A DNA stretch of 26,751 nt from a virus. Under the pieces are notes generated by a model. That model made no database searches and was not told the DNA's origin. It saw only the letters and a program-made list of their open reading frames with translations. The stretch lies in IMG/VR virus record IMGVR_UViG_3300023184_000451, positions 1 through 26,751 of that record. One strand, written 5' to 3'. This document shows, piece by piece, positions 2,169-12,028 of the stretch (the first letter of the stretch is position 1; each line of letters begins with the position of its first letter). Position numbers and translations under genes: made by a program.

Positions 2169-4091
2169 TCAAAACATATCGTCAATATCTTCCGGCTTGT
2201 AGTCCCACGACTGATACATTCTAATTTTTTCTCCATTGAGGCCATCGCTGAAGCTGCTGGTGATCAGCCCTTGTCTTCTGGCTACTTCCAGCATCTTGCC
2301 TGTGCCGGCAATGTCATAGTTACCGACAAGGGCCGCCGCTTGACGCCTGGAGAAACGCTCATGCTTGCGCATGCTAATGGCATTTACAACCTTATCCAGC
2401 TCCTCTGAAGTGCCACCTATTGGACCAGCATATTCCCAGCCATAGTTCAAGGCATCACGACGCAACACATGCTTGCCCGTGAGGCCACTTCGGCTTTTTA
2501 ACCATTCCAAGTTGAATTTATTACTGTCAAATTCATTGTCTGACTTAGACAACTTAACCACTTCACTCACGTTGTCTACAAAGCTTGTAGAATCCCTCAG
2601 GCCACCACTTTTGTTCAAATGGTGAAGAATAAGGATAGAGCAGTTATAGTTATTGGCCAGGTCTCGCAGTTTATAGATAACGTCGCCAGCATTGCTCTTT
2701 ACTAAATCTACGTCCATGCCAGCAAGGCATGCTGTAAGACTGTCAATGGTAATGAATAATGGTCGATGCTTTCTCACGTAATCTTCCAGTTGTTTCATAT
2801 GGGCAAATCGCCAGGTCTCCCAAAAGTTGATAGTACCTGGTTCCAATCCAGCATCTTCATATCCAATAACGCCAAGCTTTTCACTGGTATCTACCAATGG
2901 CTCATCACTCTGAATGATCAAGCTTTTACCTTGCATGCATCGCCTGCCGCTCCAGGGAGTGCCTAGTGCCACGTGCAGCGCCCAGTTGTAAGCAATTGTA
3001 CTTTTACCCTCTCCGCCAGAGGCTGCAAGCAGCATCACGCTTCCCAATGGCATTATGCCTGCAATTAGCCATTCCCTTGCCTTATCAGAGCCAGCAATGG
3101 CAAGGGCATCGATAGTTTCCATTTCTTCTCTGCCATAAATACGACCCTTAACGTCCTCGATAATTTTCTCAACATTGTGCTGGGGCAGCTTCATGGCGCG
3201 TTGATCTAGCCATGCATTTGTTTCGAACGCAATTCGGGCATCATTTGCATATAGCCCCACAAAGTTTTCGACGGCAGCAACAATTTCTTCGTAGGCCGGC
3301 TTGCCATCTTGATTCTTGTGGCGATTCTTGGAAACAATGGAAGCAAGCAGTTCATCTTTAGTGGCACCTTCTTCAATGTAATCCGCAAGATCGTAACCAT
3401 TGCCTGCTGGTAAATTATCCCACTCCCAAGACTTCGGGTCGGCATATAGCCAACTGGCGCCAGGATTATCAGTTTCAATTTCAGCCATGAAGGCCACGCC
3501 TTGAACATCACGATCAGGAGCTAGGACAATCTTTTGTCCCCTAAAAAGCTGGCCATAATCACCGTTGGTCCTGTATTGCTTGCTTCCCCCTAAAAAAGTG
3601 ACGGAAGGTAACTGAATGCCCCATACTGCGTCGCAAGTTAGTTCACCTTCGACAATGATGATAGGCAGTCCTGTTTCGCGACTTTTTGTTATCGCCTCTT
3701 CATACCTGTAAGGCAAGATATTTGCCTTCACCTCCTGTAGTTGAGTTTTGTGATTAGTGGCGTTAGGTTCAATGGTAGGGAAATTTTGCCAAATACGCTT
3801 ATTGCCTCCTGCGTCGTCTCGGTGAACAATGACAACCTCCTCTTTCTTGTTGTTGAAATAACGAAACTGGTGGTGGCCAGTTGTTCTTGATGGTTTCTCC
3901 CATCGAACCAATGGGGCTAATGTGTTGCGGATGTCAGCCCTGTGCGCTGAACTGGGGTCGTGCCAGCAGTTGTAGCCTCCTGTGGCCTTGTTTATAGTGA
4001 AATCGTTACCTCCGCACGCTGGGCAGACGAACTTCCCGGTTTCGTTGCTGGGCTCCAACTGCTCTAGGTGATCAAGGATTGAAAAGGACAT
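2169..4091 (-). CDS. Primase-helicase (zinc finger, TOPRIM, RecA-like ATPase)
   Basis: This 640-aa protein combines primer synthesis with a hexameric-type ATPase and would act at the phage replication fork. It has an N-terminal zinc-binding region (C23, C26, C42, H44) and a TOPRIM domain with IIVEGE (Glu149) and LAPDRD (Asp193, Asp195). A RecA/RepA-type ATPase follows, with Walker A GGEGKST (359-365), Walker B FITID (446-450) and an ILHHLNKSGGLRDS motif (488-501). The C terminus looks like a winged helix. The start at 4091 puts the zinc finger at the usual distance. In-frame ATG 4193 or TTG 4220 would add 34-43 unremarkable residues and cover the divergent control region. It is the only large minus-strand gene in the replication region, next to an RHH regulator on the other strand. 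Confidence 0.9.
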   Translation of the reverse strand: MSFSILDHLEQLEPSNETGKFVCPACGGNDFTINKATGGYNCWHDPSSAHRADIRNTLAPLVRWEKPSRTTGHHQFRYFNNKKEEVVIVHRDDAGGNKRIWQNFPTIEPNATNHKTQLQEVKANILPYRYEEAITKSRETGLPIIIVEGELTCDAVWGIQLPSVTFLGGSKQYRTNGDYGQLFRGQKIVLAPDRDVQGVAFMAEIETDNPGASWLYADPKSWEWDNLPAGNGYDLADYIEEGATKDELLASIVSKNRHKNQDGKPAYEEIVAAVENFVGLYANDARIAFETNAWLDQRAMKLPQHNVEKIIEDVKGRIYGREEMETIDALAIAGSDKAREWLIAGIMPLGSVMLLAASGGEGKSTIAYNWALHVALGTPWSGRRCMQGKSLIIQSDEPLVDTSEKLGVIGYEDAGLEPGTINFWETWRFAHMKQLEDYVRKHRPLFITIDSLTACLAGMDVDLVKSNAGDVIYKLRDLANNYNCSILILHHLNKSGGLRDSTSFVDNVSEVVKLSKSDNEFDSNKFNLEWLKSRSGLTGKHVLRRDALNYGWEYAGPIGGTSEELDKVVNAISMRKHERFSRRQAAALVGNYDIAGTGKMLEVARRQGLITSSFSDGLNGEKIRMYQSWDYKPEDIDDMF

Positions 4092-4105
4092 GCGGGCCAG
4101 AAGGG

Positions 4106-4175
4106 CTGAGCCATCATGGCATCCCTGTCGGCCCACTGCAACGACTGGGCTCCATAAGAAAGCCTGATGGCTCAG
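4106..4175. promoter_or_regulatory. Divergent control region with 11-bp inverted repeat
   Basis: CTGAGCCATCA (4106-4116) and TGATGGCTCAG (4165-4175) form a perfect 11-bp inverted repeat separated by 48 bp. It lies between the primase-helicase (minus, start 4091) and the RHH-type gene (plus, start 4229). The left arm also overlaps an odd palindrome, GCCATCATGGC (4110-4120), and CATGATGG at 4191-4198 repeats part of it in inverted form. Paired sites between divergent genes beside a ribbon-helix-helix protein suggest operators. That role is inference. I could not pick out convincing -35/-10 elements here. Confidence 0.4.
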
Positions 4176-4228
4176 AGGCTTGCCAGCCAGCATGATGGGC
4201 CTATAGTCAGGGGGCACCAACGGAGGCC

Positions 4229-4462
4229 ATGCCCAGAGCTCACTACGATGGCGGCAAACAACGCCGTCACTTCACTCTGTCTAGCCAAGTTTACGATCAC
4301 TTGTCCAGCCTGGCAACAGAAGCCCAGCTCAGTCGATCTGAAACTGTTGAGCGCATCTTGCGCTCCACAGGCCCTGAATACAGCAGTATCGTCTCCGACG
4401 ATGTCTGGCCTGAAATCATTGATCACACCACCCTTTTGCCGTCTCAGCCATTGTCATCATGA
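4229..4462 (+). CDS. Ribbon-helix-helix-like DNA-binding protein
   Basis: This 77-aa protein fits the ribbon-helix-helix fold: a basic strand RRHFTLSS (about residues 12-19), helix A QVYDHLSSLATEA, a turn, and helix B SRSETVERILRST. RHH proteins bind DNA as dimers through the paired strands, and many autoregulate. The tail (residues 49-77) is acidic and not conserved-looking. There is no alternative in-frame start upstream before a stop. GGAGG (4222-4226) is only 2 nt from the ATG, so initiation may be weak. It is divergent from the primase gene and next to an inverted repeat, so control of that promoter region is plausible. It overlaps the next gene by 4 bp (ATGA). Confidence 0.7.
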   Translation: MPRAHYDGGKQRRHFTLSSQVYDHLSSLATEAQLSRSETVERILRSTGPEYSSIVSDDVWPEIIDHTTLLPSQPLSS

Positions 4463-4725
4463 ACCTAGCCGAACTTACCAAGATCTGCCAGCAAGCACAC
4501 GACACCTACGGAGATATTCCTGTGCTGCTTTGCTACGAGCAATCAGCAATGGATGAGGGCTACGACGAATTAGAGACAGAAGGAATTAGTGACATCAGGC
4601 TCACAGAAAGCTGGGCATTGCCAGGATCAAGTCTGGTGACAGACGAAAGCGAAAAGCCAAAGAGGTTGGTTATTTTTTATGACAATCATTACAAGCTTGA
4701 CTCTGCCCATCTTTCTCCCTTCTGA
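4459..4725 (+). CDS. Hypothetical acidic protein, 88 aa
   Basis: I do not recognise this 88-aa protein. It starts MNLAELTKICQQAHDTYG, then has a strand-like IPVLLCYEQ, an acidic central part (about residues 31-50) and a second strand KRLVIFYDN near the end. This general shape (N-terminal helix, then strands predicting a small alpha/beta fold) is common among small phage proteins of unknown role. It is translationally coupled to the RHH gene (ATGA overlap) and is followed after 2 bp by the annealing-protein gene, so it is part of the same early operon. Confidence 0.65.
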   Translation: MNLAELTKICQQAHDTYGDIPVLLCYEQSAMDEGYDELETEGISDIRLTESWALPGSSLVTDESEKPKRLVIFYDNHYKLDSAHLSPF

Positions 4726-6547: not shown

Positions 6548-6790
6548 ATGGCTAACAAGCCGCCCATCACTGCTGCCATTGACCTCACCCCTGACGTGCT
6601 TAAGGCCTTAAAGGAAGCAGGTCCAAACGAGCGAGGGAACTACAGCCTCGAAATGGCCGTTTGGGATAACACCAAGCGATCGTCCGATCGAGCTCCAGGA
6701 TACACGGGCTCCGTAAAAGTGAAGGGCCAACGCGATGGCGCAAAGGGCTATGCCAGCGTCTGGGTAAACGAAGCCGAAGATGCATTCTGA
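6548..6790 (+). CDS. Hypothetical protein, 80 aa
   Basis: I cannot assign a function to this 80-aa protein. It begins MANKPPITAAIDLTPDVLKAL, then has a strand-rich middle (YSLEMAVWDNTKRSSDRAP) and a basic, Gly-rich part (YTGSVKVKGQRDGAKGYASV) with a short acidic end. The basic strands and position between exonuclease and nucleotide-metabolism genes would suit a small nucleic-acid-binding protein, but that is inference. The start is well supported by AGGGAG (6537-6542) 5 nt upstream. Its TGA stop shares one base with the ATG of the following gene. The 49-bp gap before it includes a small GCCCA/TGGGC stem-loop. Confidence 0.75.
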   Translation: MANKPPITAAIDLTPDVLKALKEAGPNERGNYSLEMAVWDNTKRSSDRAPGYTGSVKVKGQRDGAKGYASVWVNEAEDAF

Positions 6791-7377
6791 TGGGAAGTTT
6801 TCTTTGCGACAATCAAATACAAAAGCTTGCTGAGCTGGATGTATTTTTGCCCTTTGTCGGAGAGAAGCAACGTACGCTTGACTATGGAGTAAAGGCCATT
6901 TCTTTTGGCCTTTCCCAAGCGGGCTACGATATTCGTTTATCTCCGGAAGAGCTGTTAGTTTTCAATGGCGCCAACAAAGCTAACGCCATACTCGACCCCA
7001 AGTTAAGCGATCCAACTCTTTGCTATGCAGCACCAAGAGCTATTGACGGCAGCACTTTCTTTATTCTCCCTCCCCATAGTTTTGGCCTTGGCGTCAGTCT
7101 TGAGCTGATTTCTATGCCAGATAATGTATTTGCCATTGCTCAAGGCAAATCCACCTATGCAAGGTGTGGATTGATCACTAATATCACGCCAATCGAACCT
7201 GGATGGAGCGGTCATTTGACTATTTGCCTTGTCAATCCGACAGGATTCTCCATTCGCATCTATGCAAATGAAGGCATTGCTCAGGTGATGCTTTATCGCT
7301 TAGACGAAAACGCAGATAAGCCTTACACCGGACCCTATCAAGGACAAGGTGCTAGGGTAAGACAAGCCATGGTCTAA
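6790..7377 (+). CDS. dcd: dCTP-deaminase-family protein lacking the usual catalytic Glu
   Basis: This 195-aa protein is a clear member of the trimeric dCTP deaminase/dUTPase family, which turns dCTP into dUTP on the way to dTTP. Family motifs are present: GYDIRLS (45-51), QGKSTYARCGL (118-128, with Ser121 and Arg125), PIEPGWSGHLT (134-144) and IYANEGIAQVMLY (157-169). Known deaminases read LT(I/L)E(I/L)SN after PGWxG. Here the codons give LTICLVN, so the Glu that activates the water is Cys146. The alignment needs no gap on either side. The protein may therefore be a dUTPase, a binding or regulatory homologue, or have moved its catalytic residue. It overlaps the previous gene by one base and lies in the same operon as ThyX further downstream. 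Confidence 0.85.
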   Translation: MGSFLCDNQIQKLAELDVFLPFVGEKQRTLDYGVKAISFGLSQAGYDIRLSPEELLVFNGANKANAILDPKLSDPTLCYAAPRAIDGSTFFILPPHSFGLGVSLELISMPDNVFAIAQGKSTYARCGLITNITPIEPGWSGHLTICLVNPTGFSIRIYANEGIAQVMLYRLDENADKPYTGPYQGQGARVRQAMV

Positions 7378-7380
7378 ACA

Positions 7381-7758
7381 TTGAGCGCTCTTGAAGACGA
7401 CTTTCACAGCCTTTGGCAAGCCCACCATCCACAGCTTATTCTTGAGCGAGAATTTTCTGATATTGATGCATGGGAAAGAGATTTTCAAGAGCGCCACTTA
7501 AAAAGCAAGCGATCTAAAAGGTACCGACTAGATTTTGCTCACCCTCAAAGCCGCACGGGCATTGAAATACAAGGCGGAGTTTATATTCGTGGGCGGCATG
7601 TAACTGGATCAGGGTATGAGCGTGATTGCCAAAAGTACAATCTTGCTTATACCAGTCAATGGACAATCTTCCTTCTCACTTCTACCATGGCCAAAGAAAC
7701 CGCTTGGCTCTCTTTGGTTGCGGAGCATATTGCTGCACAGTCTCTGCGGCTTCATTGA
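7381..7758 (+). CDS. VSR-like PD-(D/E)XK endonuclease
   Basis: This 125-aa protein matches a common small phage nuclease type related to VSR/DUF559 enzymes. Visible features are a basic patch KSKRSKRYRLDFAHP with Asp51, an IEIQGG core (Glu62, Gln64), RGRH, and GxxxDCQKYNLA (about 78-89) followed by WTIFLLT. These would form a one-metal or two-metal PD-(D/E)XK active site acting on branched or mismatched phage DNA; the exact substrate is unknown. The frame opens with TTG at 7381, 3 bp after the preceding stop, and there is no strong ribosome-binding site. The last 77 bp overlap, tail to tail, the gene on the opposite strand. Confidence 0.75.
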   Translation: MSALEDDFHSLWQAHHPQLILEREFSDIDAWERDFQERHLKSKRSKRYRLDFAHPQSRTGIEIQGGVYIRGRHVTGSGYERDCQKYNLAYTSQWTIFLLTSTMAKETAWLSLVAEHIAAQSLRLH

Positions 7759-8041
7759 GAATTTCGTCAGCCGCACGCAAGTCAAGCGCTTGCTTTGCCA
7801 GTGTTTGACGAAGTTGCATATTTTCAAGCATTACTGTTTGAAAAGCTGTCTGCATTGATGCCCAACCCTCCAGCAACTGCTTGGACGCAGTTTTTAATTG
7901 TGACAAGTCAGAACAATTGTCAATTGCACGACGATTGACCGTCATTGCAAATTCTCGCTCCGCAGAATGCTGAAATGGGCCCATAGTACCATGAACTGTT
8001 TTGCCATTGTACTTCATTTCCATTGCAATGCCGAAGACCAT
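7682..8041 (-). CDS. Hypothetical coiled-coil protein
   Basis: This 119-aa protein has no recognised function. It begins MVFGIAMEMKYNGKTVHGTM and then forms long heptad-like helices (about residues 35-100, rich in Leu, Gln, Ala and Glu). It ends in a basic/aromatic tail, PKRAKRFLWPW. Alternative starts are ATG 8023 or 8017, the latter giving MKYNGKTVHG. A longer frame reaching 8173 seems unlikely. It stands alone on the minus strand within a plus-strand block and overlaps the nuclease gene convergently by 77 bp. Clean helical periodicity supports it as a real gene. It could be a scaffold or DNA-binding accessory protein, but nothing proves this. Confidence 0.6.
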   Translation of the reverse strand: MVFGIAMEMKYNGKTVHGTMGPFQHSAEREFAMTVNRRAIDNCSDLSQLKTASKQLLEGWASMQTAFQTVMLENMQLRQTLAKQALDLRAADEILNEAAETVQQYAPQPKRAKRFLWPW

Positions 8042-8183
8042 GAGTCGATTCTCATTTATCGTTAGGCTAGGACATCGGGATGGACGCAACAGCTTTGCCA
8101 AGGCCGTGGACAAAGGCGAAATCACCGCAAACACTGGTTCGGAAAGCCCTAGGATATTGCATCCATCCAGCAAAAGGCATAGA

Positions 8184-10410: not shown

Positions 10411-10554
10411 ATGTCTGGAGTTGAATGGTTTGTTGTGGGCGGCATCATCATTGCCGCCTTGGACCAAGTGATTCAGCACACACCCTGGAAAAGCAATAAC
10501 GTCGTTCAGCTTGTGCTGACTGGCCTCAAGGCAATTTTCCGAGTGAAAAGCTGA
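10411..10554 (+). CDS. Putative holin-like membrane peptide, 47 aa
   Basis: This short frame encodes 47 residues starting MSGVEWFVVGGIIIAALDQV. One hydrophobic segment spans about residues 6-20. An amphipathic, positively charged second half follows (HTPWKSNN, then VVQLVLTGLKAIFRVKS). Its TGA stop shares one base with the ATG of the lysin gene, which strongly supports translation. A tiny one-helix membrane protein directly upstream of an endolysin is the classic layout of a phage holin or lysis accessory. The holin function is inferred from position and topology, not from a recognised family. Confidence 0.65.
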   Translation: MSGVEWFVVGGIIIAALDQVIQHTPWKSNNVVQLVLTGLKAIFRVKS

Positions 10555-11492
10555 TGGCAGCCAATGAGCAATTCTGGAACGAGTGCTTTTCTATTGCCCG
10601 GCAATGTGGTGCTCGCTTTCCAGAACTTGTGGCTGCGCAATGCTGCCTAGAAAGTGGCTTTGGACAATACGTGTCTGGTCGGAATAATTTTCTTGGCCTG
10701 AAAGGTAGCGGATCCAGCGTGTCTACACAAGAGTGGTACGATGGTCAATGGGTGAATATCACTGATGGCTTCATTGACTTTCCTAGTCTCGCGGCTTGCA
10801 TAGAATACTTGGTCACAAGGTGGTACAAAGACTATCATCAATTCAAGGGCATTAACAATGCACCCAATCGCTATGCTGCCGCTCGCATGCTGAAGGATCA
10901 GTCCTACGCCACTGATCCAGATTATCCGGCAAAGCTGTCGCGTTTAATGAAACAATACTCTCCTCAATCCTCCCTTCCAATGATTGGACCAACCAAGCGC
11001 CCTCAAGATTTTGGTTTCAAGAAGGGTGACTTTCATCTTATTGTCAACGACATTAGTGAAACCATGAAAGCTTTTTCTTACGAAGGAAAGCTTCTATGGG
11101 AAATCCCCTGTCTAGCCCGTGGACAATACAGCGATTTTGAATTTAAGCTTACCAACTCTGATACGCCTGTCGGCTTGTATAAAATTGGGCAAATCTATAA
11201 AGATTATGATAATGTTGGAGGCACTCCTGAATATGATCGTACCTTGATGTCATATGGATGGTATAGCTTTGATTTGGTAGAGCTGGAGAATCAAGAAAAC
11301 AAGTTTGGCCGGGCCGGCATTATGATCCACGGCGGGGGATCGGCATGTGGTTGGCCTGGCGCATGGGCACCTACTCAACAACTATTTCCGACCCATGGTT
11401 GCGTGCGCTGTAAAAACATTGATCTCAAAGACAAAATTCTTCCACTAACCAAGACAGGCACGGTATTTGTCAGCGTTTTTCAGGAAGGATGA
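10554..11492 (+). CDS. Endolysin: glucosaminidase fused to L,D-transpeptidase-like domain
   Basis: This 312-aa protein has two peptidoglycan-acting domains. Residues about 1-138 resemble the FlgJ-type N-acetylglucosaminidase fold (glycoside hydrolase 73-like), with candidate catalytic Glu33 in CLESGFGQY, NNFLGLKG (44-51), and FPSLAACIEYL then YAAARML. Residues about 158-308 resemble a YkuD L,D-transpeptidase, with MIHGGGS (His259) and THGCVRC (His281, Cys283, Arg285) matching the HGxxx...(S/T)HGCxR signature. A Pro-rich linker (139-152) joins them. There is no signal peptide, so a holin is needed. The second domain might cleave or bind peptide cross-links rather than form them. The gene is coupled to the 47-aa peptide upstream and overlaps the next gene by 4 bp. 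Confidence 0.88.
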   Translation: MAANEQFWNECFSIARQCGARFPELVAAQCCLESGFGQYVSGRNNFLGLKGSGSSVSTQEWYDGQWVNITDGFIDFPSLAACIEYLVTRWYKDYHQFKGINNAPNRYAAARMLKDQSYATDPDYPAKLSRLMKQYSPQSSLPMIGPTKRPQDFGFKKGDFHLIVNDISETMKAFSYEGKLLWEIPCLARGQYSDFEFKLTNSDTPVGLYKIGQIYKDYDNVGGTPEYDRTLMSYGWYSFDLVELENQENKFGRAGIMIHGGGSACGWPGAWAPTQQLFPTHGCVRCKNIDLKDKILPLTKTGTVFVSVFQEG

Positions 11493-11899: not shown

Positions 11900-12028
11900 A
11901 TGGAAGTCGTAATCGGTTTAGCTTTATTTTCCGCTGGTATTGCCCTGACTAGCCGTCTATACTATCAATTGGTCCATCCATGCCGATCGACTTGCGAGAT
12001 TGCATCTTTGCGTCATCTTGATGAATAA
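11900..12028 (+). CDS. Possible small membrane peptide, 42 aa
   Basis: A 42-codon frame starts MEVVIGLALFSAGIALTSRL, giving one hydrophobic helix (about residues 3-16) and a polar tail with two Cys. It begins 12 bp after the previous stop, but its second half (from 11949) overlaps the 3' end of a minus-strand gene by 80 bp. A short membrane peptide after a lysis cassette is plausible. Nothing beyond the hydrophobic stretch supports it. Confidence 0.3.
   Translation: MEVVIGLALFSAGIALTSRLYYQLVHPCRSTCEIASLRHLDE

Follow-up and report, generated by a model that had tools for sequence, protein, structure and literature searches.

A thyX-linked member of the dCTP deaminase family that lacks the catalytic glutamate in S-CBS4-like phages

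The gene and its surroundings

The window, i.e., the whole stretch of 26,751 nucleotides that we analysed (IMG/VR record IMGVR_UViG_3300023184_000451), carries a gene of the dCTP deaminase (DCD) family whose product has a cysteine in the column of the catalytic Glu138 of Escherichia coli Dcd. The viral proteins that share the loss of this glutamate are called Glu-less below. The gene and its neighbours are as follows, with residues numbered as in the phage protein:

5734-6498, plus strand: PD-(D/E)XK exonuclease, in the same replication/recombination module as the DCD gene
6548-6790, plus strand: open reading frame of 80 residues (unknown function) directly upstream of the DCD gene; 96 of the 103 Glu-less viral loci have it
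6790-7377, plus strand: Glu-less DCD-family gene, 195 residues and a stop codon
6859-6867, plus strand: Gly24-Glu25-Lys26, a motif specific to the Glu-less clade
7147-7164, plus strand: K120-S-T-Y-A-R125, the nucleotide-binding motif in the R110-R115 column of E. coli Dcd, with K120, S121, T122 and R125 invariant in the clade
7195-7197, plus strand: Glu136, in the Asp128 column of E. coli Dcd, which is that of the dUTPase motif III acid; invariant in the clade, proposed water activator
7225-7227, plus strand: codon TGC of Cys146, in the column of the catalytic Glu138 of E. coli Dcd
7333-7335, plus strand: Pro182, in the Lys178 column of E. coli Dcd (C-terminal GKYQ motif)
7381-7758, plus strand: open reading frame between the DCD gene and thyX, PHROG 503 (unknown function), present in 103 of 103 Glu-less viral loci
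7682-8173, minus strand: open reading frame between the DCD gene and thyX, matched by a frame of 37% identity at the corresponding position in Synechococcus phage S-CBS4
8592-9329, plus strand: thyX, flavin-dependent thymidylate synthase, the conserved downstream partner of the DCD gene

The start ATG of the DCD gene overlaps the stop codon of the preceding reading frame (TGATG at 6788-6792). Its product matched the dCTP deaminase equivalog of NCBIfam (dCTP_deam, TIGR02274; 112.6 bits, cut-off 92.8), the Pfam family DCD (PF22769; 84.9 bits, cut-off 27) and PHROG 1663 (dCTP deaminase). The match to PF00692 was weak (27.8 bits), and the canonical dUTPase model TIGR00576 was absent among the NCBIfam matches. 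The glycine-rich C-terminal motif of canonical dUTPases is absent as well; the protein ends with GPYQGQGARVRQAMV. AF2 modelled the monomer with high confidence (pLDDT 92.9), and the best fold match was the bacterial Dcd 4dhk. Sequence comparison with PDB entries gave 122 and 104 bits for the bacterial Dcds 4dhk and 3km3, and 60 bits for 9ln0 (P45). The full reading frame and the TIGR02274 and Pfam DCD matches bear out the original prediction of an intact dCTP deaminase homologue. A defence-system DCD was considered and dropped, as PADLOC gave no match for one.

The gene had also been placed in an operon upstream of thyX. It is true that thyX lies downstream, but it is not the next gene, and the label operon fits only loosely because the plus-strand frame at 7381-7758 and the minus-strand frame at 7682-8173 separate the two. 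We found thyX in 101 of the 103 Glu-less viral loci, on the same strand each time, and in 78 of the 79 loci whose sequence extends 3.5 kb or more downstream. The same search found no thyX in five Glu-bearing viral loci, which form a small comparison set. Among the other neighbours, the 80-residue frame had no Pfam or PHROG match, and the minus-strand frame had no Pfam match.

The window shares a largely collinear gene block with S-CBS4, from primase/helicase to endolysin (32–76% identity), so that the half with replication and lysis genes resembles S-CBS4. An apparent mosaic boundary lies near position 12000; the genes to its left are largely collinear with S-CBS4, and those to its right (the tail region, on the minus strand) are almost without similarity to it. 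The predicted endolysin (10554-11492, plus strand) combines a glucosaminidase domain with a YkuD L,D-transpeptidase-type domain, and is 76% identical to the annotated endolysin of S-CBS4.

Loss of the glutamate in a viral clade

Alignment with Dcd from the E. coli K-12 genome record placed Glu138 on Cys146 of the phage protein, and the E138A mutant chain in the PDB (1xs4) has its alanine in the Cys146 column, which fixes the column independently. Both agree with the original prediction that Cys146 replaces the catalytic glutamate. The same cysteine occurs in five IMG/VR relatives with ~92% amino acid identity. A sequencing error or lone mutation is ruled out by these relatives and by the 104 sampled records without the glutamate.

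Our sequence set combined two IMG/VR scans, one GTDB genome scan and annotated phages. The Glu-less viral clade (n = 104) has Cys in 46, Ser in 29, His in 15 and Asn in 14 sequences, with Asp or Glu in 0/104, and Glu was found in 94 of 95 relatives outside the clade, although the totals of 104 and 94 contain near-identical rows. Whether the cysteine is shared by a clade had been raised earlier: what all 104 members share is the absence of Glu, and 46 of them have Cys. Hence the cysteine itself is not the point, because sister lineages carry Ser, Asn or His, which rules out a Cys-specific chemistry. The only cultured member that we found is S-CBS4 (gp073), with Ser in this column.

Maximum-likelihood trees were built with column 146 removed. 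In a quick tree, thinned to 101 rows (37 Glu-less and 63 Glu-bearing), the Glu-less viral proteins fell on one side of a branch with an SH-aLRT value of 98. The same split was recovered in a careful tree of 73 rows (bootstrap/SH-aLRT 100/98). The glutamate was thus lost once, in the ancestor of the S-CBS4-like phage clade. The gene is under purifying selection in this clade: pairwise dN/dS ranged from 0.06 to 0.23, and was below 0.16 in every measurable pair except one.

The remaining relative outside the clade is a cellular sequence from an Omnitrophota MAG in GTDB (L149:4950-5540), with Ala in the Glu138 column (LTIAISN) and other motifs that look intact. It sits apart from the viral clade and would therefore represent a separate loss, if real. 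Within the clade, a Cys-type subgroup (L059-L061, L063, L064 and L066) has GKSTYGR and ILP instead of GKSTYAR and ITP, a further change beside the pocket.

The pocket compared with related enzymes

Arg115, Ser111, Asp128, Trp131, Tyr179 and Gln182 of E. coli Dcd correspond to Arg125, Ser121, Glu136, Trp139, Tyr183 and Gln186 of the phage protein. Residues K120, S121, T122, R125, N131, P134, E136, W139, G141 and T144 were identical in 104/104 rows, as were N149, E161, G162, Q165, Y179, G181, Y183 and Q184; Q186 was Gln in all 96 rows reaching that column. Two pocket columns changed in the Glu-less clade. One is Glu138, changed in all rows, and the other is Lys178, which is relaxed: Lys was present in 88/88 scored Glu-bearing rows versus 49/104 Glu-less rows. 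Columns 43, 44 and 118 also divide the two groups. Of the hallmarks of a dCTP deaminase, the protein thus has the TIGR02274 score, the fold, and Arg115, Ser111 and other nucleotide-binding residues, and lacks Glu138 and Lys178.

Loss of Glu138 should abolish deamination. Johansson and co-workers reportedly found in 2005 that the E138A and E138Q variants of E. coli Dcd had no detectable activity. PDB titles indicate that the E138A variant still binds dCTP and dTTP. The residues found at position 146 (Cys, Ser, Asn and His) can all form hydrogen bonds, from which we infer a possible contact with the base. Conservation of Glu25 (98 of 101 rows) and of Lys26 (every row) is confined to this clade, and Glu25 is a possible candidate for an acid that substitutes for the lost Glu138.

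Bacterial Dcds (TIGR02274, 4dhk, 3km3) are nearest to the phage protein in sequence and fold, and have the GKSTYAR and TP-x-E-x-x-W motifs in common with it. The phage clade differs from them by Cys, Ser, His or Asn at Glu138, the relaxed Lys178, the GEK motif, and columns 43, 44 and 118.

The DCD fold is also found in two PDB structures titled as dUTPases, "A thermostable enzyme dUTPase P45" (9ln0/9ln3) and "Thermococcus pacificus dUTPase complexed with dUMP" (8y1w). We take P45 to be the Pyrococcus furiosus protein annotated as dCTP deaminase. These archaeal enzymes have Met in the Glu column and Asn in the Lys178 column, and the window protein is likewise without Glu and Lys. Like the phage protein, they also lack the DR insertion before the GxYQ motif. 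Fold alignment gave 22–25% identity to the phage protein, and the bit scores indicate no close kinship. Since the archaeal dUTPases have Met where the phages have Cys, Ser, His or Asn, the glutamate was probably lost independently. According to PMC5122711, which cites Hogrefe 2002, the P. furiosus "dCTP deaminase" hydrolyses dUTP efficiently and has no deaminase activity.

The bifunctional dCTP deaminase-dUTPases of Methanocaldococcus jannaschii, Mycobacterium tuberculosis and Bacillus halodurans have the same fold, and the phage protein would perform the dUTP-hydrolysing half of their reaction. However, the M. tuberculosis and B. halodurans enzymes keep the Glu, unlike the phage protein, and the E145A and E145Q mutant structures mark Glu as the natural residue in M. 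jannaschii. Sulfolobus virus proteins annotated as dUTPase keep the Glu as well. Hence, loss of Glu alone is no marker of a dUTPase, because these viral proteins and the bifunctional enzymes retain it. Canonical trimeric dUTPases (PF00692/TIGR00576) belong to the same superfamily and share with the phage protein an acid in the Glu136 column. The Glu is absent from E. coli Dut too, where Ser occupies the Glu138 column. In contrast to these enzymes, the phage protein has neither the glycine-rich C-terminal motif nor a TIGR00576 match.

Probable function and the source of dUMP

A picocyanobacterial host is presumed for the phage of the window, with S-CBS4 as the sole guide, and we took the family of Synechococcus sp. 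1G10 (151 genomes) as the presumed host family. The canonical dUTPase model TIGR00576 matched in 0/151 of these genomes, and dCTP deaminase (dcd) was found in 144/151. Of 41 sampled genomes of this family, 38 have thyX, by coordinates beside dcd in many of them. With dcd and thyX present and no dut match, the presumed hosts therefore have enzymes to supply dUTP and to consume dUMP, but a canonical dUTPase to link the two is missing. The step to dUMP might be taken in the host by a bifunctional Dcd, by MazG, which was present in the single host genome tested, or by another enzyme. The adjacency of dcd and thyX without a canonical dut hints at a host Dcd with both activities.

On the phage side, we searched 15 long Glu-less records (38–80 kb), which are possibly incomplete and none of which is certified complete. 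Each has one ThyX and exactly one DCD-family gene. No second intact DCD, and no match to a separate dUTPase beyond the DCD gene, was found in the 15 records; nor was a PF00383 deaminase (dCMP deaminase) or MazG. The dimeric dUTPase model had no match in them either, but this carries little weight because the model matched, weakly, in just 1 of 14 control genomes. A gene missing from one possibly incomplete viral record says little, but its absence from all fifteen counts for more. DNA containing dU is unlikely in these phages, because they encode ThyX; the Dcds of the dU-phages described in PMC12697855 fall outside the metal-independent family of this protein.

We consider it likely, with a probability of about 0.6, that the phage protein is a deaminase-dead dUTPase derived from a DCD, which hands dUMP to ThyX. 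Deamination would have disappeared from a DCD-fold enzyme a single time, in the ancestor of the S-CBS4-like phages. The conserved pocket (Lys120, Ser121, Thr122, Arg125, Trp139, Tyr183 and Gln186) would hold dUTP, Glu136 would activate water, and dUTP would be cut to dUMP and pyrophosphate, after which the phage ThyX would methylate dUMP to dTMP. The dUTP would be supplied by the host Dcd, and in S-CBS4, where a ribonucleotide reductase is annotated, possibly by this phage enzyme too. For the phage protein, we infer dUTP binding, dUTP hydrolysis, the role of Glu136 and the trimer.

The original prediction held that deamination should fail without the Glu, and listed a dUTPase, regulatory nucleotide binding or the use of another residue as options. 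Loss of the deaminase base is upheld by the E. coli Dcd alignment, the E138A structure and the clade-wide loss of single origin. Among the options, the archaeal precedents, the gene context with its thyX linkage and the dut-less presumed host family favour the dUTPase. The Glu loss, its single origin, purifying selection and the kept pocket also speak for this reading, as do the 15 long records, in which no separate dUTPase was recognised. Several points count against it. Glu136 is also present in deaminases that are not dUTPases, the sequence is nearest to bacterial Dcds (4dhk, 3km3) and not to P45, the clade-specific Glu25 might restore deamination, and MazG or a bifunctional Dcd may already provide the hosts with dUMP.

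The conserved pocket might also hydrolyse a different nucleotide (dCTP, dTTP or a modified dNTP), which would serve control of the nucleotide pool instead of dUMP supply. In its favour, the residues that bind phosphate are intact, and changes fall on the base-contacting column and on columns 43, 44 and 118. We nevertheless regard it as rather unlikely: the linkage with thyX points to dUMP, we noticed none for DNA modification among the annotated genes of S-CBS4, and we know of no such substrate for a Glu-less DCD fold. It is distinctly improbable that the protein is still a dCTP deaminase that works through another acid, such as Glu25, or a rearranged pocket. The conservation of Glu25 and Lys26 in the Glu-less clade alone would suit this explanation, but E. 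coli Dcd is reportedly inactive when Glu138 is replaced by Ala or Gln, and Lys178 is relaxed as well. Moreover, the Glu is replaced by four different residues (Cys, Ser, Asn and His), so deamination does not constrain this site.

A non-catalytic role, as a nucleotide-binding sensor or in mixed trimers that block the host Dcd, seems quite unlikely. The active sites of DCDs lie between subunits (PMC4827122), the hosts carry a related dcd, and staphylococcal phage dUTPases are described as signalling proteins (PMC5593958). However, the hydrolysis side of the pocket is almost fully conserved, Glu136 included, and mixed trimers are doubtful because the phage protein is only ~42% identical to the host Dcd. 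A decaying pseudogene without importance has nothing but the absence of the expected catalytic residue in its favour, and is ruled out by the dN/dS values and by synteny over ~100 loci, along with the conserved pocket; its chance is minute.

Apparently, the proteins of this clade are misannotated, as a curated equivalog model and RefSeq name them dCTP deaminase even though the deaminating residue is gone clade-wide. Should they indeed be dUTPases, thymidylate pathways in phages would have to be annotated differently. More tentatively, a one-function dUTPase may have evolved from a dCTP deaminase in this large phage lineage, supplying ThyX with dUMP and filling a step for which no dedicated host enzyme is recognised. 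Host and virus would then share the bifunctional DCD-DUT reaction, with deamination by the former and hydrolysis by the latter. It becomes a testable question where dUMP comes from in picocyanobacteria that have dcd and thyX, apparently without a canonical dut, and whether the phage supplies this step. In the picocyanobacterial genomes G027-G066, dcd often adjoins thyX; for instance, contig C45 of G037 has dcd at 3417-3881 and thyX at 3911-4507.
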